In this document: positions 48,644-58,965 of the stretch, piece by piece
How the letters are laid out: the number at the start of each line of letters is the position of its first letter
Numbering within the stretch: the stretch's first letter is position 1
Assembly: GCF_026163685.1 (NCBI RefSeq)
Contig: NZ_JAOXSR010000006.1
Span: 124,001-188,000 of the forward strand
DNA: 64,000 nucleotides
Direction of reading: 5' to 3'
Origin: Oerskovia flava
GTDB lineage: Bacteria; Actinomycetota; Actinomycetes; Actinomycetales; Cellulomonadaceae
Made by a program: the position numbers and the translations under genes
The notes under the pieces: generated by a model
Database searches by the model: none
Seen by the model: only the letters and a program-made list of their open reading frames with translations
What the model was told of the DNA's origin: nothing

Positions 48644-49126
48644 ATGGAAGACGGCACATCGGAGTCACCCGGTACCCCCGGGGATACCGTGGACGCGCAG
48701 GTCACGGGGCAGGTCGCCCAGCACGACACTGCGCTCGCCGACGAGCACGACGACGAGATCTGGCAGTGGGACACCCGCGAGGGGTGCGAGGTCCGGCAGA
48801 TCCTCGACCGGGTGGCGGACAAGTGGTCGTTGCTCGCCATCGCGCTGCTCGACCGGCGCACCATGCGCTTCACGGAGCTCAAGCGCGAGATCGACGGCAT
48901 CAGCCAGCGCATGCTGTCGCGGACGTTGCGCCAGCTGGAGCGCGACGGCATGGTGACCCGCACGGTCCACCCCGTCGTCCCGCCGCGGGTCGACTACGCG
49001 CTGACGCCGATGGGCGCGACGCTGCACTCCACGATCAAGTCGCTCGTCGTGTGGACGGAGGACCACCAGCTGGAGATCGCCAGGGCGCGTGCGGAGTACG
49101 ACGCGCGCCAGCCCACCACCCCCTGA
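48644..49126 (+). CDS. HxlR-family winged-helix regulator
   Basis: The 160-aa protein has an acidic N-terminal tail (about 45 residues). The HxlR core is CEVRQILDRVADKWSLLAIALLDRRTMRFTELKREIDGISQRMLSRTLRQLERDGMVTRTVHPVVPPRVDYALTPMGATL. HxlR proteins sense redox or electrophilic signals through a cysteine near the N-terminus of the core; here one sits at CEVRQIL. Divergent from the MFS gene, which it probably controls. A GC hairpin spans its stop codon. Confidence 0.92.
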   Translation: MEDGTSESPGTPGDTVDAQVTGQVAQHDTALADEHDDEIWQWDTREGCEVRQILDRVADKWSLLAIALLDRRTMRFTELKREIDGISQRMLSRTLRQLERDGMVTRTVHPVVPPRVDYALTPMGATLHSTIKSLVVWTEDHQLEIARARAEYDARQPTTP

Positions 49127-49140
49127 GCCGCGGGCGGCTC
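49125..49140. terminator. Short convergent terminator-like hairpin
   Basis: GAGCCG and CGGCTC arms with a CGGG loop span the stop codons of the convergent HxlR and methyltransferase genes. Confidence 0.4.
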
Positions 49141-50008
49141 AGCCGGGCTTGCGCGCCACGACGAGGAACCGCGGGGCCTCGTCGACGAACTCGTGCCCGG
49201 CGGCGAAGTGCAGGTGCAGCGCGCGCAGCGGCGCCTCGAAGCGGGCGATCGCGGCGGGGGAGAGGTCCGCGAGGTCGGGCACCTGCCACGCGATGATCTT
49301 GAGGTACCAGAGCAGCGCACCGAGGTCGGTGAAGTGGCGCAGGCCGAGGTGCTCGCGCGCCACGTCGACGACGAAGCCGGCGTCGGTGAGCACGTCGACG
49401 GCTCCTTCGAGGGTCACGTCGTCCGGCCCCCACGGCAGCTGCGCGCCGAGCGCCGTGTTCACCCGGATGCCGTCGCGGGTGTCGACCTGCTGGGTGCAGA
49501 AGATCCCGCCCGACTCCAGGACCCGGTACACCTCGCCGGGGTCGAACTCCTCGTGGCGGTCGAGCACGACGGCGAACCGGCCGTCCAGGAACGGCAGCGG
49601 CAGCTCTTCCGGGCCGACGCGCTCCACCTGCCGCACGTCCACGCCCAGGGGCTCGAGCCGACGGCGGGCCACCGGCAGGTTCGGCGCCCACCCCTCGGTC
49701 GCTCCCGACCCGGGCGGGAGGGGCGCGAGCGACGCGAAGACCTCCCCGCCGCCGGTCCCCATGTCGAGCACCGGTCCGCGACCGCTGTGCACGAGCTCGC
49801 GCGCGAGCGCGAGGTAGTCCCACGGGAGCGGGTCCTCGGTGCAGCGGCCGGCGACGGGCGAGAGGTCGAACCCTTCGACGGGCTCGGCCCGGGCCCACTC
49901 GACGTGCGCCTCGAAGGACGCGTCGGGGGCGGGCGGTGGGCGGGTGGGGCGTTGCGACGCGCCGTCGGGCAGTCCGTCCGGCGCGGCAGCGGGTCCTGCG
50001 GCAGGCAT
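49139..50008 (-). CDS. Class I SAM-dependent methyltransferase
   Basis: The 289-aa protein starts at ATG 50008. The first ~35 residues are Pro/Ala-rich, then WARAEPVEGFDLSPVAGRCTEDPLPWDYLALARELVHSG. Motif I of the SAM fold is GPVLDMGTGGGEVFASL. A typical acidic end of strand 2 follows (PVARRRLEPLG). RFAVVLDRHEEFDPGEVYRVLESGGIFCTQQVD is the post-I/motif III region. The substrate is not identifiable. It ends next to the HxlR gene, facing it. Confidence 0.9.
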   Translation of the reverse strand: MPAAGPAAAPDGLPDGASQRPTRPPPAPDASFEAHVEWARAEPVEGFDLSPVAGRCTEDPLPWDYLALARELVHSGRGPVLDMGTGGGEVFASLAPLPPGSGATEGWAPNLPVARRRLEPLGVDVRQVERVGPEELPLPFLDGRFAVVLDRHEEFDPGEVYRVLESGGIFCTQQVDTRDGIRVNTALGAQLPWGPDDVTLEGAVDVLTDAGFVVDVAREHLGLRHFTDLGALLWYLKIIAWQVPDLADLSPAAIARFEAPLRALHLHFAAGHEFVDEAPRFLVVARKPG

Positions 50009-50058
50009 GCTGCGATTGTCTCCCGCCGCAGGCGGGCAGTCGAACGGCCGCGCCGTGG

Positions 50059-50568
50059 TCAGTCGGCCGTCTCTCGCCCGGAGCGCCCGCTGGGACGTGG
50101 TTCGAGCACGACGACGGCGGTCGGCGTCGGGCGCCGGGCCGCGTACTCCTCGAGCTTGTCGTCGTACCGTCGCCACGTCTCCCACAGCCGCTCGCGCTCG
50201 GCGCCCTCGGCGGCGCGGGCCCGGACCGTGCGGGTGGTGCCGCCCTGGAGGTCGACGGTCACCTCGGGGTCCGCCTGCAGGTTGAGCCACCACGCGGGCT
50301 CGGGCGCCGCCCACCCGTTCATGGCGAGCGTGACGAGGTTCGGCCCGTCCTCGACGTAGCCGACGATGACCGTGTGCTCGTTGCCCGTGCGACGTCCCAC
50401 GGTGTGCAGCCGGAGCGTGCCCCAGCGGTCGGGTCGCGGGCGCCACAGCCCTCGCCGGCCTCGCGTGAGGCGGTAGTAGGCGCGGTGCACCACCCACGCG
50501 CCGCGGACGAACCAGCGCGGAGGCAGGCGGGGTGCTCGGTCGGTTCCGTCGGTCGCGGTGCTGGGCAT
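50059..50568 (-). CDS. Deazaflavin (F420)-dependent nitroreductase-family protein (Ddn-like)
   Basis: The 169-aa protein matches the split beta-barrel Ddn family: WGTLRLHTVGRRTGNEHTVIVGYVEDGPNLVTLAMNGWAAPEPAWWLNLQADPEVTVDLQGGTTRTVRARAAEGAERERLWETWRR. Ddn of mycobacteria reduces nitro or quinone compounds with F420H2. The GRRTGN segment is part of the F420 phosphate site. It shows the organism probably makes F420. The F420 genes themselves are outside the window. Confidence 0.92.
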   Translation of the reverse strand: MPSTATDGTDRAPRLPPRWFVRGAWVVHRAYYRLTRGRRGLWRPRPDRWGTLRLHTVGRRTGNEHTVIVGYVEDGPNLVTLAMNGWAAPEPAWWLNLQADPEVTVDLQGGTTRTVRARAAEGAERERLWETWRRYDDKLEEYAARRPTPTAVVVLEPRPSGRSGRETAD

Positions 50569-50661
50569 CGACGGCCCTCTCTCCTGCTGCGGTGGCGAGC
50601 CCCTGTGTCGCTCCCACGCTCCCGCGGGGAGGACCCCGCCGTCAACAGTCCGACGGACCGT

Positions 50662-51573
50662 TCAGTCGAGGACCGGGAACTGCGTCCCGAGCCAGAACGC
50701 CCCGGCCACGAGGAGTGCGGAGACCGCCAGGAACACGACGTCGCCGAGCCGCACCTTCAGGTACGCGAGCCGGATGCGGCGGCCGGCGTCGTTCTCGGCC
50801 GCGAAGGTGAAGCCCTTGGTCTCGAGCGCCTCGACGGTGGTCCGGGTGCGCTTGGCCGTGTTGAGCATCATCGGGTAGAACGCCTGCACGACGGTCGTGC
50901 CCAGGCGCACGACGACCCGCCACCCGAGGAACCCCTTCGACGGCAGCGGCGCGGACCGCAGCCGGTGCCCGTCGATGATGGTGTGGAACTCCTCCATGAG
51001 CATCGGCAGCATGCGGTAGCCGTAGCTCACGGCGAAGCTCAGCAGCGCGGGCGCCCGCAGGGACAGCAGCGCGTCGGACAGCTTCTCGGGGTCGAGCGAG
51101 ACGAACGCCGCCATGCTCGCCATGGAGATCGTGCCGAGCTTGAGGGTCAGCTCCGCGAGCGCGACGATGCTCTCGGTCCCACCGCCGAAGATCGCTGCCG
51201 CGACGAGCAGGTAGAACCCCTCGGCGAGGAGACCGATGACGAACAGGCCGAGCACGAGCGGTCCCACGCGGCTGACGAGGACGGCGACGGCCGCGAGCAC
51301 GAACAGCGAGGCGAGCACGGTCACGGAGTGCGTGAACCACGGCACGACCGCGAACAGCAGGTACCACCAGATCACGACGCGCGGGTCGCGCTTCGACAGC
51401 AGCCCGCCGCGCGTCGCGTAGGCGGTACGCATGAGCTCGAGCTTGACCCACTCGACGGAGATCGTGTCGCGGTCCTTGCGGTCACGCCGGCGGGCGCGAC
51501 CCTTCGGCGCGGGGTCGGGTGCGGTCACGGGGCGCGCGGCCGGGGCGACCGGGGTGAGCGGTGGTGCGGTCAT
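50662..51573 (-). CDS. ECF transporter transmembrane protein EcfT
   Basis: The 303-aa EcfT-like membrane protein has the family opening region KRDPRVVIWWYLLFAVVPWF, five or six helices, and the two short ATPase-coupling helices with the Ala-Arg-Gly-like motif region MMLNTAKRTRTTVEALETKGF. ATG 51573 overlaps the stop of the fused ATPase (ATGA), making it the last gene of the HAD-S-A-T operon. It links EcfA-EcfA' to the substrate-specific S protein encoded two genes upstream. Confidence 0.92.
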   Translation of the reverse strand: MTAPPLTPVAPAARPVTAPDPAPKGRARRRDRKDRDTISVEWVKLELMRTAYATRGGLLSKRDPRVVIWWYLLFAVVPWFTHSVTVLASLFVLAAVAVLVSRVGPLVLGLFVIGLLAEGFYLLVAAAIFGGGTESIVALAELTLKLGTISMASMAAFVSLDPEKLSDALLSLRAPALLSFAVSYGYRMLPMLMEEFHTIIDGHRLRSAPLPSKGFLGWRVVVRLGTTVVQAFYPMMLNTAKRTRTTVEALETKGFTFAAENDAGRRIRLAYLKVRLGDVVFLAVSALLVAGAFWLGTQFPVLD

Positions 51574-53405
51574 CGGGCGTCCGTCCTCGTGCGGTGGGCG
51601 TCGGGCAGGTGGGCGTCGGGCAGGTGGGCGTCGGGCAGGTTCGGTGCGAGGCGGGCGAGCAGCTCGGCCACGGACAGCGGGGGCGGGAGCATCCCGATCG
51701 TCGCGCCGAGCTGGGCGACCTGCGGCGGCACGAGCCGGGCGCGCGTGAGCACGCCCGGGCGGGAGAAGAGGGTCGCGGGGTCGGTGTCCTCGATGATCCG
51801 GCCGCCGTCGAGGACGATCACGCGGTCGGCCCACTCGGCGACGAGGTGCATGTCGTGCGTCGCGACGACGACGCACCGGATGTGCTCGGCGAGCGCCGCG
51901 AGCATCTCGATGACGTCGTCGCGGCTGCGCACGTCGAGGCTCGACGTGGGTTCGTCGAGCAGGAGGAGCGCCGGCTGCATGGCGAGCCCGATCGCGAGGG
52001 TCGCGCGGCGCTGCTGCCCCCCGGACAGCAGCCGGCCGTCGCGGTCGGCGAGCTCGGCGAGCCGCACGCGGTCCAGGACCCGCTCGACCAGCTCGTCCGC
52101 GCCCGAGCGCTTGCGGTCGACCGGGAAGTACCCGACGTCGGCCCGCACGGAGTCCTTGACGAACATCTGCTCGGGGCGCTGGTAGAGGTAGCAGACCTGG
52201 TCGGAGAGCTGGGACGCGCTCACGGTCTTGGTGTTGGTCCCGCCCACGACGACGTCGCCCGAGCGGGGCACCTTCAGCCCCGTGAGCAGGCGCAGGAGGG
52301 TGGACTTCCCCGCGCCGTTGGACCCGACGAGCGCGACCCGCTCGCCCTCCCGCAGCGTGAGGTCGAGGCCGTCGAGGACCGGGTTCCACGCGCCGGAGAC
52401 GCTGCGGTACCCGTGCACGACGCCGGAGAGCCGGGCCGCGACCGCGGCCTCACCCTGCCCACGTGGCCGGGTGGTCGCGGGCACCTGGCCCGCAGGCGCC
52501 TGGCCCGTGGGTGCCGGGCCCGTGGGTGCCTGACGCGCCCGGGCCGGGCGGTGACCGCGCTCGTCGAGCCAGCGCGCGGCGTCGGGCACCGTGAGGGGCA
52601 CCGGGCCGTCCTGCTCGAGCGCGCGGGCCACCGCGACGACCTGCGGGGCCGGGATGCCGGCGTCGTCGAGGTCGCTCGTGCGTGCCAGGGCGTCGGCGAC
52701 CGGCAGGTGCCAGCGCGGGGCGCCGTCGGCCATGAGGACGACCGAGCGGGCGTAGCGGGCGACGAACTCCGCGTGGTGCTCGATGACGACGACCGTCGTG
52801 CCCTCGCGGTTGAGCTGCGCGAGCCGCTCGTAGATCTCGGTCGCGCGCGCCGGGTCGAGCTCGGCGACCGGCTCGTCAACGACGATGACCCGGGGGCGCA
52901 ACGCCATGACGCTCGCGAGCGCCGTCAGGTGCTGCTGCCCGCCCGAGAGCTGCCACGTGAAGCGGTCGGCGAGCTCGGTGATGTCGAGAGCGGCGAGCGC
53001 GGTGTCGGCGCGCTCGGACCAGTCGTCGAGCCCGAAGTTCACGGGTGCGAACGTCACCTCGTCCCGCACGGTCGGCCGCACGAGCTGGGCCGCGAAGTCC
53101 TGGTAGACGTAGCCGATGCGGTGCGAGAGCGCCGCGACCGTCAGGTCCTGCGTGTCCTCGCCGAGGATGCGCACCGAGCCGACGAGGTCCCCGGACCAGA
53201 AGTGCGGCACGAGCCCGTTGAACGTCTTGCACAGCGTCGTCTTGCCCGAGCCGTTCCCGCCCACGACCGCGACGAAGTCACCCTGCTCGATCCGCAGGTC
53301 GACACCGCGGAGCGTGTCGTCGGCGGCACCGGGGTAGCGGAACCAGAGGTCCTCCACCTCGATCGCCGGGACCTCGCTCGCCGGGGCCGCGGGGACCGGA
53401 GTCAT
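51570..53405 (-). CDS. ECF-type ABC transporter, two ATPase domains fused (EcfA-EcfA')
   Basis: The 611-aa protein has two full ABC cassettes. The first contains GGNGSGKTT, LSGGQQHL and VIVVDEP. The second contains GSNGAGKST, LSGGQQRR and LLLLDEP. They are joined by a low-complexity Pro/Ala/Gly linker with repeated APTGQAPAG units near 310-330. The C-terminus has three LPDAH repeats. Group I and II ECF modules normally use separate or fused EcfA subunits; here both are on one polypeptide. Its stop and start overlap neighbours by 4 bp. Confidence 0.93.
   Translation of the reverse strand: MTPVPAAPASEVPAIEVEDLWFRYPGAADDTLRGVDLRIEQGDFVAVVGGNGSGKTTLCKTFNGLVPHFWSGDLVGSVRILGEDTQDLTVAALSHRIGYVYQDFAAQLVRPTVRDEVTFAPVNFGLDDWSERADTALAALDITELADRFTWQLSGGQQHLTALASVMALRPRVIVVDEPVAELDPARATEIYERLAQLNREGTTVVVIEHHAEFVARYARSVVLMADGAPRWHLPVADALARTSDLDDAGIPAPQVVAVARALEQDGPVPLTVPDAARWLDERGHRPARARQAPTGPAPTGQAPAGQVPATTRPRGQGEAAVAARLSGVVHGYRSVSGAWNPVLDGLDLTLREGERVALVGSNGAGKSTLLRLLTGLKVPRSGDVVVGGTNTKTVSASQLSDQVCYLYQRPEQMFVKDSVRADVGYFPVDRKRSGADELVERVLDRVRLAELADRDGRLLSGGQQRRATLAIGLAMQPALLLLDEPTSSLDVRSRDDVIEMLAALAEHIRCVVVATHDMHLVAEWADRVIVLDGGRIIEDTDPATLFSRPGVLTRARLVPPQVAQLGATIGMLPPPLSVAELLARLAPNLPDAHLPDAHLPDAHRTRTDAR
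51594..51638. repeat. Three tandem 15-bp repeats at the 3' end of the ECF ATPase gene
   Basis: Copies at 51594-51608, 51609-51623 and 51624-51638 are identical and encode LPDAH three times near the C-terminus. In-frame slippage would change C-terminal tail length without breaking the gene. Confidence 0.9.
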
Positions 53406-54406
53406 CGGTCGGCACCCCGGCGGCGCACGACGGCCCGCGTGACGAGCACGGCCACGACGAGGACGGCGACGACGGCCGCCACCGACACCCACAGGAACCC
53501 GGTGCCGTACTCCTCGAGGAACTCGGGCTCGAACGCGCCCCAGGTGCTGACACCATCCTCGCGGCCGTTGAACTCGTCGAGCTGCTCGACGAACGCGAAC
53601 AGCGCCGCGAGGAGTGTGAGGGCCACGGCGAGGAGGATGAACGGCGCGGCGCGGCGCCCGCCCAGGGTCGGGGGGTTCGCCGGGTCGCGCGGCTCCATGC
53701 CCATGAGCGGCTCGATCTTGCCGTAGAGGCGTGGGGCGAGCCACATGGCCGGCAGGGCGCCGAAGAGGATGCCCGTGACGACCAGCGCGACGAGCAGGTC
53801 GATCGCCTCGAGCGCGATGAACCCCTGTACCAGGCCGTCGGCCTCGCCGAGCGAGTCCGGGTCGATGCCGACGAGGACCTTCGCGATGTCGACCGTCGCC
53901 GAGAGGAACTTGTCGATGAGCACCGCGACGATCGCGGCGACGGCGAGCTGCCTGCGGTTGCGCGGGTCGCGCACCAGGCACCCGGCGACGTAGAGGCCGA
54001 GGAAGAGCTGGACGTAGCCCTCGATCTCGCCGATCCCGGAGAAGTCGCCCATGAGCAGGTCGACGAAGACGATCTCGCCGAGCGGGGCGCCGAGCGCGGC
54101 ATACAGGGGGTGGAAGAGGGACACCATGACGACGGGGACGAACACGAGGTAGGAGACCGAGATCTCGACGGGCCCGATCGTGATCTCGGGCAGCACCTCG
54201 GTGACGATGTTCGCGAGTCCGAAGAGGGTCATCGAGAAGACGAAGACCATGAGCTTCTGGGCGCTCGTCAGCTCGTTCGGTGCACGGCGGAGCCGGCCGG
54301 GTGACGTCGGTCGGGTGCGCTCAGGACGCGTGCGTCCTGCGTCGGTCGAGGTGCCGGACGGCGAGGCGCCGGGCGTCGGGGTGCTGGTGGTGGACGTGTC
54401 GCTCAT
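53402..54406 (-). CDS. ECF transporter S component (substrate-specific membrane protein)
   Basis: The 334-aa membrane protein has a ~45-residue disordered N-terminus. Six helices begin at AQKLMVFVFSMTLFGLANIVTEVLPEITIGPVEISVSYLVFVPVVMVSLFHPLYAALGAPLGEIVFVDLLMGDFSGIGEIEGYV, typical of large S components. Two more helices at the C-terminus exceed the usual six-helix fold. The vitamin or metabolite bound is not recognisable. It is coupled by overlaps to the HAD gene upstream and the ATPase gene downstream. Confidence 0.85.
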   Translation of the reverse strand: MSDTSTTSTPTPGASPSGTSTDAGRTRPERTRPTSPGRLRRAPNELTSAQKLMVFVFSMTLFGLANIVTEVLPEITIGPVEISVSYLVFVPVVMVSLFHPLYAALGAPLGEIVFVDLLMGDFSGIGEIEGYVQLFLGLYVAGCLVRDPRNRRQLAVAAIVAVLIDKFLSATVDIAKVLVGIDPDSLGEADGLVQGFIALEAIDLLVALVVTGILFGALPAMWLAPRLYGKIEPLMGMEPRDPANPPTLGGRRAAPFILLAVALTLLAALFAFVEQLDEFNGREDGVSTWGAFEPEFLEEYGTGFLWVSVAAVVAVLVVAVLVTRAVVRRRGADR

Positions 54407-56163
54407 GAGAGCTGACCTTTCCGGAGGAGGGCTGGGGTCGTGGTGCTGGACTTCCACAGGTCGAGCAGGTCGGACATCTCGGAGATCACGTGGTCGGGTC
54501 GCAGGCCGGCGGTGCGGCCTGCCGTCTCGGTGGGGAGCGTGTCGAGGAGGTCGTCGAGGACGGTGTCGTCGGTCGACCCGCCGCGGACGACGACGGTCGT
54601 GCCGATGCCGGCCCGGCGGGCGGCGAGGACGTCGCGGTGCGGCTTGTCGCCGACGAACCAGGCACCCGTGGCGTCGACCGCGAGCGCGTCGAGCGCGGCC
54701 CGGACCGTGGCGGGGTCGGGCTTGCGCCGCCCGAGCTCGTCGGAGTAGACGTGCACGCCCACGAGGTGCGCGATCCCGAACGTCTCGAGCTCCTCGCGCA
54801 CGGCCCGGCCGCACACGGTGTTGGAGACGACGGCCACGGGCACACCGTGCTCCCTGGCCAGCTCGAGGACGTCGCGGACACCGGGGCGCAGGCTCGCGCG
54901 GGACTTGGCGCGCGCGTGCCCGAGCATCAGGGCGTGGGCCTCGGCGCGCAGCAGGTCCGGGGTGCCGGGGCCGGCGAGCCCGGCGGCCGCGAGCTCGCCG
55001 CCGACCAGGTCGACCCAGAAGGTCGCCGGGTCGATCTCCGGCACCACGTCACCGTCGGCGTGCTCGGCCTTCCACGCCCGGTAGCGCCCACGGCCCGCGG
55101 CGACCGCCGCGGCGACCGCCGCGTCCTGCGTCTCGTCGAGGCCCAGCAGTGCGGCGAGCTCGCGGGCGAACGCGAGCCGGGCGGCGTCGTCCACCTCGGA
55201 GGTGACGATCACGCCGCCGTGGTCGAGCAGGAGCGCCGTGGGCAGCCCGGTGCCCGACGTCGGCCTGACCGCGCGCGTGCCGGTCGCCGGGGTCGGGGGC
55301 TGGTCCTGGGGTCGCGCCTCGGGGACGAGCACGCTGCGGCGCAGCGGCTCGACGAGGCCCTCGGGGGTGTCGTAGACCGCGTCGGGGCGGTCCGTCACGG
55401 GGTAGGGCGGGGTGTCGGTGTGATGGTGGCGGGTGACGATCACGGCGCCGACTCCGGCGCGACGGCCCGCGACGACGTCGCGGTCCTGCGTGTCGCCGAC
55501 GTACCAGCTGCGGTCCGGGGTCGTGCCGAGGGCCCGGGCCGCCATCTCGATGATGGCGGGGTGGGGCTTGCGGATGCCGACCTCGTCCGAGTACACCTGC
55601 ACCGCGAAGTGGCCGGTGAGGCCGTGCGCGTCGAGGAGCGTGCGGTGCGCGCGGCCCGAGTGCGCGTTGGACACGATGCCGACCGGCACGCCGAGGTCGC
55701 GCGCCGTCGCGAGGAGGTCCCGGACGCCGGGGCGCACGACGTGCGCGGACAGGGTCGTCGACATCGTCGCCAGCAGGTCGCCCGCGCTGCCGGCGAGCAC
55801 CTGGCGCTGCGGGCGGGGCAGGGACGACGCGAGGAAGTCGGTCCAGATCGTCCGGTGGTCGAGCTCGACGGGCTCGAGCCGGCGCCCCGCGGAGTTCTTC
55901 CAGTCCTTGAGCGCGGCGAGCCCTGCCTCGATCGACACCAGGAGGTCGGCGGGGTCGGCGTCGTGCCCGGCGCGGGCCAGGACCTGCGCCAGGTGGTCGG
56001 CGAAGGCCGCTCGCCCACCGGGGTGCTTGGTCGTCTGGAAGACCACGCCCCCGAAGTCGAGCAGGAGCGCCGCGGGCCGGGCGCGCAGGGCGTCCGGGGA
56101 CGTGGGCGCGGGCAGGGTCGCGGAGAGCGGGTCGGGGAGGGCTGCGGGAGCGAGCGTGGTCAC
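54403..56163 (-). CDS. Tandem HAD-superfamily phosphatase (two HAD domains)
   Basis: The 586-aa protein has two complete HAD domains. Domain 1: ALLLDFGGVVF, VGIVSNAHSGRA, IRKPHPAI, YVGDTQDRD. Domain 2: ALLLDHGGVIV, VAVVSNTVCGRA, RRKPDPAT, FVGDKPHRD. The nucleophilic Asp is kept in both, while the second Asp of the DxD motif is Gly (DFG, DHG), as in several sugar or small-molecule HAD groups. GTG 56163 is the start; no strong ribosome site is visible. It is the first gene of the ECF operon, and may dephosphorylate or process the imported substrate. Confidence 0.87.
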   Translation of the reverse strand: MTTLAPAALPDPLSATLPAPTSPDALRARPAALLLDFGGVVFQTTKHPGGRAAFADHLAQVLARAGHDADPADLLVSIEAGLAALKDWKNSAGRRLEPVELDHRTIWTDFLASSLPRPQRQVLAGSAGDLLATMSTTLSAHVVRPGVRDLLATARDLGVPVGIVSNAHSGRAHRTLLDAHGLTGHFAVQVYSDEVGIRKPHPAIIEMAARALGTTPDRSWYVGDTQDRDVVAGRRAGVGAVIVTRHHHTDTPPYPVTDRPDAVYDTPEGLVEPLRRSVLVPEARPQDQPPTPATGTRAVRPTSGTGLPTALLLDHGGVIVTSEVDDAARLAFARELAALLGLDETQDAAVAAAVAAGRGRYRAWKAEHADGDVVPEIDPATFWVDLVGGELAAAGLAGPGTPDLLRAEAHALMLGHARAKSRASLRPGVRDVLELAREHGVPVAVVSNTVCGRAVREELETFGIAHLVGVHVYSDELGRRKPDPATVRAALDALAVDATGAWFVGDKPHRDVLAARRAGIGTTVVVRGGSTDDTVLDDLLDTLPTETAGRTAGLRPDHVISEMSDLLDLWKSSTTTPALLRKGQLS

Positions 56164-56228
56164 GGTGACGACCGTAGGGACGCCAGGAGGACACGAGACG
56201 ACCGTCGGGCGACGGCCGGGTGAACGAG

Positions 56229-56244
56229 ACTGGAACGTTCCAGT
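56229..56244. promoter_or_regulatory. Perfect 16-bp palindrome, LacI-type operator
   Basis: ACTGGAACGTTCCAGT lies between the divergent HAD-ECF operon (56163) and LacI gene (56302). The TGGAACGTTCCA core has the CG centre favoured by LacI dimers. It is the only perfect palindrome in the region. Confidence 0.85.
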
Positions 56245-56301
56245 TCCTGATGGTGCCCGCGCACCCCGCGTCATGTCCCTGACAGCGAGCGCGAGCGCCC
56301 C

Positions 56302-57309
56302 ATGAGCCACAATGGCCGCGTGAGCACCCGCCCGACCCTCCTGGACGTCGCCGCCCGCGCGGGCGTCTCCAAGTCCCTCGTCTCGCTCGCGCTGCGCGGC
56401 GACGACGGGGTCGGCGACGCCACCCGGGCGCGCATCCTCGCGGTCGCGGACGAGCTCGGCTACCGGTCGAACACGCTCGCGCGCAGCCTCAAGCAGGGCC
56501 GCACCGCGCTCCTCGGCGTCCTGCTGACCAGCCTCGCGAACCCCTACCACACCGACGTCGTCGCCGGCGTGGAGGACGCAGCCGAGGCCGCCGGGCTCAC
56601 CGTCCTGCTGTCCCACGGCTGGCGCGACCCCGCGCGCCTCGCCCGCCGGCTCGACACGATGCTCGACCTGCACGTCGACGGGGTCGTCGTCATCTCCTCC
56701 TGGCTCGACGACGCGCTGCTCACCCGCGCCGCCCGCCGCACGCCCGTCGTCCTCGTCGGCCGCAGCAGCACCCCGGTGCCCGGGATCGACTCGCTGAACA
56801 ACGACGACGCGCTCGGGGCGGAGCTCGCGGTCGCGCACCTCGCCGAGCACGGGCACACCCGCATCGCGCACCTCGCCGGCGGCACCCGGCCCGCGTCCAT
56901 CGCCCGCCGCGCCGGGTACGACGCCGCGATGGCCCGGCGCGGCCTCGGCGACCTCCGCCGCACCGTCGGGCACGACGCACCGGACTGGCGCACGGCCGTC
57001 GACGCCGCCCTCGCCGACGGCTGCACGGCGGTGTTCGCCCGCAACGACGTCGCCGCGGTCGACCTCCTGGACCACGCGCTCGACTCAGGCCTCGACCTGC
57101 CCGCCGACCTGTCCGTCGTCGGCTACGACAACACGGCCCTGGCCGAGCGGTCCCGCCCGCGCCTCACGAGCGTCGACCAGCCACGCCTCACGATGGGTCG
57201 GCGCGCCGTCGACCTCCTCCTCGAACGCCTCGGCGGCCGCACCGACGACGTGCACGAGGTCCACCGCCCCGCGCTCGTCGAGCGAGGGTCCGTCGCGCAC
57301 CGCTCCTGA
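56302..57309 (+). CDS. LacI-family transcriptional regulator
   Basis: The 335-aa protein has the LacI headpiece PTLLDVAARAGVSKSLVSLALRG, the hinge region, and the sugar-binding-like periplasmic-fold domain with LLGVLLTSLANPYHTDVVAGVEDAAEAAGLTVLLSHGWRDP and ADGCTAVFARNDVAAVDLLDHAL. ATG 56302 is used. GTG 56320 (VSTRPTLLDV) is equally possible. It is divergent from the HAD-ECF operon with the palindrome at 56229-56244 in between. Substrate-responsive repression of the uptake system is the expected role. Confidence 0.94.
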   Translation: MSHNGRVSTRPTLLDVAARAGVSKSLVSLALRGDDGVGDATRARILAVADELGYRSNTLARSLKQGRTALLGVLLTSLANPYHTDVVAGVEDAAEAAGLTVLLSHGWRDPARLARRLDTMLDLHVDGVVVISSWLDDALLTRAARRTPVVLVGRSSTPVPGIDSLNNDDALGAELAVAHLAEHGHTRIAHLAGGTRPASIARRAGYDAAMARRGLGDLRRTVGHDAPDWRTAVDAALADGCTAVFARNDVAAVDLLDHALDSGLDLPADLSVVGYDNTALAERSRPRLTSVDQPRLTMGRRAVDLLLERLGGRTDDVHEVHRPALVERGSVAHRS

Positions 57310-57367
57310 ACCGGCTCGGAGGTGCTGTCGGGAGGCGAGCCTCGCCCACCGCCGGACGCGGAAGACC

Positions 57368-58324
57368 TCAGGGCGCACGGAACGGCGACCAGCGCGGTAC
57401 CCAGCAGCGCACCTGGTCGCGGTACGTGAGGTACGGGGCGCCGAGGCGCTCTGCGAGGTCAGCCTCCTCGAGCGGGCGGACCAGCCAGTTCCAGACGAGC
57501 GAGCCGCACAGCGCGTAGACCACCACGAGCCACGAGCCGAGGATGAGCCCGACCGCCATGCCCTGAGCGACCCCGGCCAGCGCCATGGGGTTTCGCAGGT
57601 GCTGGTACGGGCCGACGACGACCAACCGTCGCGTCGAGGCAGACGGCAGCGGGGTGCCCTCACCGTTCCGGGCCATCGCGAGGGCCGACCAGATGCCGAG
57701 AGCGCTGAACAGGAGCAGGAGGACGAACCCGGCAGCCCGTACGCCCAGCGGTAGGGAAACGCCGACTGACCAGCGTCGCTCGAGCAGGAGGATGACGGCG
57801 GGGACGACGCCGAGGAAGAAGCTCCAGAAGACGATCACCTGACCGACGGTCTGCCGTACGTGGCGGTCGGTCGAGGTTCCGGTCGCGGGCCGGAAGGCGA
57901 ACGGCCCGACAAGAATCCGCTCCGCGGGTAGCCGGTCGAACAGGACGAGTGCACCCGCCGCGATCCCGGCCGCCGCGGAGGCGATCATGAGCAGAGCGCC
58001 CCAGCCCGCGAGCCCGGTGACGGTCGCATAGACGGCCAGACCTGCGGCGACGACCACGGTCCACACGACGACGACCCGGACAGCGGGCCGCCGGCCGACG
58101 GCAGCGAGACCGGATGCCACGACGAACAGCGGAAGATCGAACGCCGCGACGACGACCGGATCCAGTCCGCCGAGCGTCGCCTCGCGGATCCACGGGGTGG
58201 TGAACACTCCGATCCACCAGGCGAGACCGAGGAGGCACTGGACCGCGAAGTAGGCCCGTCCGAGCCGTGCGTCGAGGACCGGCGCCCGCCGCGGCGCCAG
58301 GACGGGCAAGCGAGGTGAGGCCAC
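57368..58324 (-). CDS. Isoprenylcysteine carboxyl methyltransferase (ICMT)-like membrane protein
   Basis: This 318-aa membrane protein has about eight helices. The C-terminal region VVVGPYQHLRNPMALAGVAQGMAVGLILGSW and the final YRDQVRCWVPRW match the PEMT/ICMT-type membrane methyltransferases (GPY-x-x-x-RNPM). GTG 58324 is the start codon. It faces LacI at its 3' end and is divergent from glutathione peroxidase. Methyl acceptor unknown. Confidence 0.85.
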   Translation of the reverse strand: MASPRLPVLAPRRAPVLDARLGRAYFAVQCLLGLAWWIGVFTTPWIREATLGGLDPVVVAAFDLPLFVVASGLAAVGRRPAVRVVVVWTVVVAAGLAVYATVTGLAGWGALLMIASAAAGIAAGALVLFDRLPAERILVGPFAFRPATGTSTDRHVRQTVGQVIVFWSFFLGVVPAVILLLERRWSVGVSLPLGVRAAGFVLLLLFSALGIWSALAMARNGEGTPLPSASTRRLVVVGPYQHLRNPMALAGVAQGMAVGLILGSWLVVVYALCGSLVWNWLVRPLEEADLAERLGAPYLTYRDQVRCWVPRWSPFRAP

Positions 58325-58482
58325 AGGTGGAGCCTGTCACGCGCGGGTCGGATGCCGACGACGCGGGCTGCGTGTTGCCGACTCCGCTCTCTACCCGCCG
58401 ATGCCCCGGCGGGCCGTCGCGCGTCCGTGTGGCCTACGCTCGTCAGCGTGCCGCACGTGCGCCACGACCCAGGGAGCAGCCG

Positions 58483-58965
58483 ATGAGCGTGTACGACATC
58501 CCCTTCCAGACGATGGACGGATCGACCACCAGCCTGGCGGAGTACCGCGACGACGTGATCCTCGTCGTCAACGTCGCCTCCCGCTGCGGGCTCGCCCCGC
58601 AGTACGCGACCCTCGAGGCGATGCAGGAGAAGTTCCGCGACCGCGGGTTCACCGTGCTCGGCTTCCCGAGCAACCAGTTCCTCCAGGAGCTCGGCTCGAA
58701 CGAGGCCATCCAGGAGTTCTGCTCGATGACGTACGGCGTCACCTTCCCGGTGCTCGACCGTGTCCGGGTCAACGGCCGCAACGAGCACCCGCTGTACACC
58801 GAGCTCAAGAAGACCCCGGACCAGACGGGCAAGGCCGGCAAGGTGTCGTGGAACTTCGAGAAGTTCCTCGTCCTGCCCGGCGGCGAGGTGCACCGCTTCC
58901 GCCCCAAGACACTGCCCGACGACCCGGCGATCCTCACGCTCGTCGAGGACCACCTGCCGCGCTGA
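58483..58965 (+). CDS. Glutathione peroxidase-family thiol peroxidase
   Basis: The 160-aa GPx-like protein has the catalytic Cys35 in NVASRCGLAPQY, Gln65 (FPSNQF) and Trp-Asn in SWNFEKFLV, which make up the GPx tetrad. Cysteine in place of selenocysteine and the monomeric-type length suggest a thioredoxin- or mycothiol-dependent peroxidase rather than a classic glutathione enzyme. ATG 58483 follows GGGAGCAGCC. Confidence 0.95.
   Translation: MSVYDIPFQTMDGSTTSLAEYRDDVILVVNVASRCGLAPQYATLEAMQEKFRDRGFTVLGFPSNQFLQELGSNEAIQEFCSMTYGVTFPVLDRVRVNGRNEHPLYTELKKTPDQTGKAGKVSWNFEKFLVLPGGEVHRFRPKTLPDDPAILTLVEDHLPR

Follow-up and report, generated by a model that had tools for sequence, protein, structure and literature searches.

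A 64,000-nucleotide stretch of the Oerskovia flava genome (contig NZ_JAOXSR010000006.1, positions 124,001 to 188,000 of the forward strand), called the window in what follows, carries an operon that almost certainly encodes an importer of the energy-coupling factor (ECF) class (Table 1). Its genes, read on the minus strand in the order tandem HAD hydrolase (HAD-HAD), S component, fused ATPases (A-A') and coupling protein (T), overlap by exactly 4 bp at all three junctions (54403-54406, 53402-53405 and 51570-51573), and a LacI gene diverges from them on the plus strand. A preliminary description, made from the letters alone, had named these parts, including two fused HAD domains, extra helices in the S component and a perfect palindrome between the operon and LacI, and each of them is recovered here: the coordinates of the junctions agree, Pfam and NCBIfam models find two HAD stretches in the first protein, the ATPase protein contains two ATP-binding cassette (ABC) stretches, the ECF ATPase equivalogs and CbiQ/EcfT are matched over cut-off, the palindrome ACTGGAACGTTCCAGT is a perfect one of 16 bp, and an AlphaFold model of S gives a core followed by two C-terminal helices.

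The known substrates of ECF importers are vitamins and metals. Genes and models together place the cassette in group I, that of dedicated ECF transporters, and ATP-driven uptake is predicted for it. EcfT is accompanied by two EcfA-type ATPase domains (PF02361 and TIGR04520 over cut-off), the six-helix S fold appears in the predicted models, and S, A and T, which form a dedicated operon in the window, stand together in 62 of 63 related loci (L003-L033 and L073-L104), the remaining one, L028, ending inside A. A second EcfT gene in the same genome (G000:C2:125676-126242, L002) is presumably part of another ECF system. The degrees of probability attached to our conclusions are judgements and not computed values.

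Table 1. Genes and putative sites of the operon region, in window positions
Feature	Position	Strand	Details
Tandem HAD-IA hydrolase	54403..56163	-	586 aa, GTG start; PF00702/PF13419, two stretches each
ECF S component (predicted), uncatalogued family, core and two C-terminal helices	53402..54406	-	334 aa; fold by predicted structure
Fused ECF ATPases (A-A')	51570..53405	-	611 aa; TIGR04520 350.7 bits (cut-off 315), two ABC_tran stretches
EcfT transmembrane coupling protein	50662..51573	-	303 aa; PF02361 (CbiQ/EcfT) 50.8 bits, cut-off 25
LacI-family regulator, divergent	56302..57309	+	PF00356 and PF13377
LacI operator (putative) ACTGGAACGTTCCAGT	56229..56244	.	12-bp core unique in genome
PHO-box-like 11-bp direct repeats GTTCCAGTCTC / GTTCACCCGGC / CGTCGCCCGAC	56204..56236	-	first repeat overlaps operator
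-10-like TACGGT	56171..56176	-	49 bp after start of GTTCACC unit

Fold and family of the S component

At E 0.01 the S protein falls into none of the Pfam and NCBIfam families, and a Pfam scan of 32 members of its family at E 1 listed 17 families, none of which is an S-component family. Its sequence profile gives a single match above noise, a weak one to FolT (E 0.022). In the AlphaFold model, built on 32 homologs (pLDDT 77, pTM 0.69), the core spans about residues 45-241 (48-227 by narrower limits) and is followed by helices at residues 253-279 and 304-333, in a C-terminal part that is of low confidence from residue 251 onwards (pLDDT 50-73 by blocks of ten). A second model, of the Bacillota homolog L029, has the same layout, and two hydrophobic peaks follow the KIEP motif in 50 of the 63 aligned S sequences.

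In a residue-level structure comparison the best 17 rows are all ECF S components, ThiT, FolT, RibU, PanT and BioY among them (Z 10.5-13.1, in a range where values under about 13 can arise by chance for helical bundles), and below them come Lnt (8.2) and BtuM (7.4). Foldseek alone gives S components in its first six rows with a best E of only 0.099. We therefore base the assignment on the agreement of the 17 rows, the gap in Z below them and the operon context, rather than on the Z values themselves, and conclude from the models that the window protein is very probably an ECF S component. Six polar residues, E70, E129, D173, K176, E200 and E232, are invariant in all 63 sequences; their position at the pocket was judged from the order of helices and not from coordinates. 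Of the five plasmid records found to carry the cassette, four annotate the S gene as 'hypothetical protein' and the fifth has no annotation there.

The group I architecture and the fused ATPases of YkoD have been described for the thiamine/precursor transporter YkoEDC (PMC5037267). YkoEDC shares with the cassette a dedicated S component, a fused two-domain ATPase and T in one operon, as well as the S-component fold (YkoE, 5edl, Z 10.5); YkoE likewise has an added C-terminal helix (PMC5037267), the window protein having two. The two systems differ in that ykoEDC has a THI-box riboswitch (PMC5037267), whereas the window operon has LacI and PHO-box-like sites and phosphatase genes, and its S component, unlike that of YkoEDC, falls in no Pfam family. 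HtsTUV (TC 3.A.1.31), placed in the 'Unknown-ABC1' family of ECF systems (PMC3654945), is another ECF importer without a known substrate. The combination found in the window is not described in the titles and abstracts retrieved by a search of open-licence PMC text, and a text search of PMC4052901, on LacI regulons, gave no mention of ECF.

Distribution of the cassette and its enzyme partners

A scan of genome contigs gave 32 loci related to the cassette; the hosts of such S-A-T cassettes are Actinomycetota, Bacillota and haloarchaea. When whole genomes were searched, S turned up in 8 of the 396 Actinomycetota and 5 of the 398 Bacillota (5 of 299 in a second draw, which overlaps the first), and within the haloarchaeal class in 24 of 194. 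A centre genome known beforehand to hold S is part of each count, and one of the Bacillota matches is a 62-residue fragment. This fragment-sized match (L071) and one of 47 residues (L034) were dropped from all neighbourhood counts; L031, whose S is broken over two frames, was left out of the tree and the S alignment, so that their 63 rows are the other neighbourhood loci plus the window. On the S tree the LacI/HAD group (26 rows, window included) and the haloarchaeal group (24) each lie on one side of a starred branch, and the PHP group (13) is weakly supported (64/68). The cassette is present in Streptomyces (L007, L009 and L110, the last on a Streptomyces cavourensis plasmid that was viewed separately and enters no count). 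It also stands on plasmid records of Halopiger, Halobacterium and Halostagnicola (L108, L109 and L112), and plasmid location suggests horizontal spread.

The enzymes and regulators beside S-A-T follow these groups; their families were assigned by Pfam and NCBIfam on one representative each, other members being assigned to it by BLAST. Of the Actinomycetota loci, 31 in number, 26 belong to the LacI/HAD type, with LacI in 24 and HAD in 25, the absences falling in L012 (both) and L013 (LacI), which are cut by contig ends. The other five (L098-L102) are of the PHP type and make up, with eight Bacillota loci, a set of 13, of which 12 have a PHP protein after T (the exception, L028, being cut) and ten an adjacent RpiR/SIS regulator. 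A TTATTTTCA..TTAC-like stretch, seen by eye upstream of S in several of them (L027, L029, L033, L098-L101), is possibly an RpiR operator. Of the 24 haloarchaeal loci 22 have a ComB-like protein, one of them 7 kb off, and the loci contain PHP2 (13 loci) or an EndoIV/CbiR-like TIM barrel of the AP_endonuc_2 family (10 loci), never both; L082 is cut on the T side, and in Natrialba (L030) the other enzymes are replaced by two IMPases and a protein with weak likeness to CehA/McbA. The TIM and PHP2 labels change four times on the haloarchaeal S tree, at least three of the changes being forced by starred branches, which indicates mutual replacement, so that the two probably do the same job. In a control on 24 haloarchaeal genomes the enzyme profiles, which were trained on the target neighbourhoods themselves, match 24 of 24 target loci versus none of 38 other EcfT loci (PF02361, E<=1e-8) within 5.5 kb. 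Histidinol phosphate was considered as a substrate, as PHP2 and the IMPase score best to HisJ/HisN-type models, and was set aside with these scores below cut-off.

The catalytic domains of the tandem HAD protein lie at about residues 30-270 and 309-540. Both have conserved the nucleophile Asp, Ser-Asn, Lys and the GD...D acid pair in 24-26 of 26 rows (one of which, L013, is a contig-end fragment whose single HAD piece was used for both domains), and on account of these residues both domains look active. Since no signal peptide is seen by eye in the HAD, PHP or ComB-like proteins, the chemistry should take place inside the cell. The occurrence of two enzyme activities per cassette (HAD-HAD, ComB-like with PHP2 or TIM, IMPase twice) would fit a diester or bisphosphate as substrate, an idea against which the PHP-type cassette, with its single activity, has to be set. 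In Brachybacterium massiliense, one of the 26 loci, HAD, HAD and S form a single frame of 887 aa, possibly through a lost stop codon or an error, and in the Brachybacterium locus L031 both HAD and S are split over frames, by decay or sequencing error.

The intergenic control region

The core of the palindrome, TGGAACGTTCCA (12 bp), occurs once in the window, with a chance expectation of 0.05 when one mismatch is allowed, and nowhere else in the 4.11-Mb genome. CTGGAACGTTCCAG or a near variant lies in the gap between LacI and HAD in 14 of 24 testable loci (contig ends exclude L012 and L013), ten of them exact. Ten Brachybacterium and Brevibacterium loci carry a different element there, CTGAAG..TTTCAG in seven and TGCAGATCTGCAG in three. 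The best solved relative of the window LacI is a ribose operon repressor, and control of the operon by LacI, as judged from these sequences, is very likely.

A further feature of the actinobacterial promoters is a GTTCACC-type unit, read towards HAD, that recurs every 11 bp. The published PHO box consists of two direct repeat units of 11 nt, and GTTCACC is its most conserved motif in S. coelicolor (PMC4415409). In 25 regions (24 orthologous intergenic regions and the window) the best pair of units scores on average 11.56 of 14 at a spacing of 11, versus 8.96-9.92 for every other spacing between 7 and 18; scores of at least 12 are reached in 13 regions at this spacing and in none at any other, and dinucleotide shuffling (300 rounds) gives a mean of at most 9.08. 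With the operators masked the mean at spacing 11 is 11.4, and 18 of the 25 regions still score at least 11. Two or more 11-nt GTTCACC repeats before the promoter, the arrangement of a PHO box, are in this sense a conserved feature of the 25 regions. A TA-type -10 hexamer, mostly TAGCGT, lies exactly 38 bp after a GTTCAY unit in 15 of them, and the distance is 49 bp in the window; the same scan finds no such pairing in nine. The pstS promoter of the same genome is built alike, with GTTCATCTCGT/GTTCACC and TAGCGT 38 bp from the second unit and 49 bp from the first.

Of the six best repeat pairs in the whole genome (0-1 mismatch), one stands before pstS, one before a PAP2 gene and one, oriented the other way, where a Pit-type phosphate transporter gene starts, the remaining three being without evident phosphate link. 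Candidate Pho regulon members in this genome are the PAP2 gene, the Pit-type gene and a gene for a small putative secreted protein with no Pfam family, which also has an 11-bp GTTCACC repeat pair before it (L152, L153 and L156). A histidine kinase and a response regulator encoded just before pstS resemble PhoR and PhoB among others, all below cut-off. Taken from the repeats, control of the actinobacterial operons by PhoP is likely. In the window and in 9 of the 14 operator loci (L003-L006, L008, L010, L011, L103 and L104) the right half of the LacI operator, GTTCC, lies 11 bp before the next repeat unit, so that LacI and PhoP would compete at the overlapping site.

A sigma-70 promoter scan of 56100-56400 found nothing; the -10-like hexamer sits 7 bp before the HAD start codon, so that the mRNA may be leaderless. 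Rfam gives no match at E<=1 over window positions 49000-58500 and, at gathering scores, no riboswitch at the cassette genes of 16 of the 63 related loci, in which it matches three tRNAs, a distant ZTP element (L008) and an AdoCbl riboswitch (L029:8743-8892). The latter lies downstream of the cassette and its PHP gene, before an open reading frame read by eye as an anaerobic ribonucleotide reductase. Control by a vitamin riboswitch was rejected on the basis of these 17 places.

What the importer may carry

The preliminary description had pointed to a sugar or a phosphorylated metabolite instead of a riboswitch-run vitamin system, and had suggested a comparison of the HAD-S-A-T-LacI neighbourhood. 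The direction stands: the cassette is widely conserved with phosphatase-type partners in each lineage, its neighbours are LacI or RpiR/SIS regulators, PHO-box-type repeats precede it in actinobacteria, and a riboswitch at the S-A-T genes was found neither in the window nor in the 16 loci searched with Rfam. The carboxylate-rich conserved residues of S are unlike a classic phosphate site. Both the repeats and the wide conservation had been missed.

In the model that we favour, S would capture, outside the cell, a small metabolite that contains phosphate; driven by T and the fused A-A' ATPase, S would release it inside, and the co-translated cytoplasmic tandem HAD would hydrolyse it to inorganic phosphate and an organic part; the direction of transport and the order of these steps are what we infer from the genes. 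Two conditions would have to coincide for transcription: LacI would be relieved by a ligand (probably the substrate itself or the organic part of it), and phosphate would be scarce, a signal acting through PhoP on the GTTCACC repeats, of which the first falls within the LacI operator of the window. Taken as a whole, a group I ECF importer that takes up an organophosphate, is induced both by phosphate starvation and by the LacI ligand and is coupled to cytoplasmic dephosphorylation is in our judgement somewhat more likely than not; that the substrate contains phosphate is reasonably probable, and a sugar, polyol or amino-alcohol phosphate, as mono- or diester, is its likely class. Ugp, which imports glycerol-3-phosphate and has a phosphodiesterase, is an ordinary binding-protein-dependent ABC importer and not an ECF one. 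In the proposed model the cassette would resemble it in phosphate-controlled uptake of an intact organophosphate and in an ABC system encoded together with its hydrolase (PMC7866108, PMC4415409), and would differ from it in the hydrolases.

Several observations weigh against this model. Ten of the 25 regions in the PHO-box count come from close kin (Brachybacterium and Brevibacterium), the repeat pair of the window has three mismatches and is weak and not significant by itself (478 places in the genome reach three mismatches, versus 89 for a reversed control pattern), and the Streptomyces loci L007, L009 and L110 show one clear unit only. Neither a PHO box nor phosphate genes are shown for the Bacillota or haloarchaeal loci. 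TTAACA is the Bacillus-type repeat consensus; upstream of S in eight Bacillota loci spacing 11 is the highest for TTAACA repeats, weakly so (mean 9.4 versus 8.1-8.9), and we do not claim PHO repeats there. The second motif-I Asp of the HAD domains is Gly in both (DFGG/DHGG/DQGG), as it is also in some active HAD phosphatases, e.g. YihX. In the PHP-type loci the PHP protein is not necessarily a phosphatase, because it is barely over the PF02811 cut-off (27.3 versus 26.4) and the solved protein nearest to it, PsfC, belongs to a phosphonate pathway. For the TIM barrel of haloarchaea an epimerase function is possible; it is annotated 'sugar phosphate isomerase/epimerase' in Halostagnicola. Finally, the invariant S residues are mostly acidic, unlike a typical phosphate pocket; such residues would suit hydroxyl or cationic groups and make a purely anionic ligand less likely. 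They would be compatible with the phosphatases if the ligand were a zwitterionic or polyol phosphate.

The same acidic, hydroxyl- or cation-friendly residues would be at home in an importer of an unphosphorylated sugar, polyol or amine, whose phosphatases act on phosphorylated side products or an internal phospho-form and in which PhoP tunes carbon use to phosphate supply. The window LacI is close to ribose/nucleoside-type regulators, the cassette of Halopiger xanaduensis adjoins GH2 and L-rhamnose mutarotase genes, and an epimerase activity of the TIM barrel would also be in line with sugars. Yet no kinase or glycosidase recurs among the neighbour clusters listed, whereas phosphatase-type enzymes do, a phosphatase of an internal phospho-form would counter a catabolic uptake route, and the PHO-box-type repeats also tell against it, so we consider this alternative unlikely.

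Pho regulons include phosphonate systems, and the repeats, together with the kinship of the PHP protein to PsfC, would equally suit an importer of a phosphonate (C-P) or a similar phosphorus compound, with enzymes that cleave C-P bonds or unusual esters. IMPase, HisJ-type PHP and ComB are, however, phosphate-ester hydrolases by family name, and the best 25 of the 49 NCBIfam rows obtained with the HAD protein include no phosphonatase model, which leaves this reading improbable. We give as little credence to an importer of a vitamin or cofactor, e.g. cobamide fragments or phosphorylated cofactors with a CbiR-like TIM partner: the structural relatives ranked first are mostly vitamin-binding S components, and CbiR (treated in PMC7733943) is the best NCBIfam match of the single haloarchaeal TIM protein tested (L032), but its 84.3 bits lie under the cut-off of 105, on which a cobamide function was rejected, no riboswitch accompanies the cassette in the 17 places examined, that of L029 preceding another gene, and inspection by eye showed no cobamide genes next to the cassettes of L030 and L032 or in the annotated plasmid-record regions, the other loci not having been checked.

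With the organophosphate model preferred over these, a broader proposal may be made, though only tentatively: that the cassettes represent an ECF family not classified before, with members in three phyla, which imports intact organophosphates together with interchangeable cytoplasmic phosphatases, and in which the operator interleaved with a PHO box would form, in actinobacteria, an AND gate for phosphate hunger and substrate. If it is true, a phosphate-ester-scavenging ECF importer under dual PhoP/LacI control would extend the range of substrates of the ECF class, and would be a missing route by which Streptomyces and its relatives take up phosphate esters intact. A 2021 review (PMC7866108) raises the question of whether actinobacteria take up sugar phosphates and nucleotides intact; it describes Streptomyces as being without ugp and uhp and says that evidence for the entry of sugar phosphates in phosphorylated form is lacking there, and among its references is one on the PhoP-dependent assimilation of sugar phosphates in Streptomyces. 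The operon described here, which is found in Streptomyces as well, makes the question of intact sugar-phosphate uptake directly testable.

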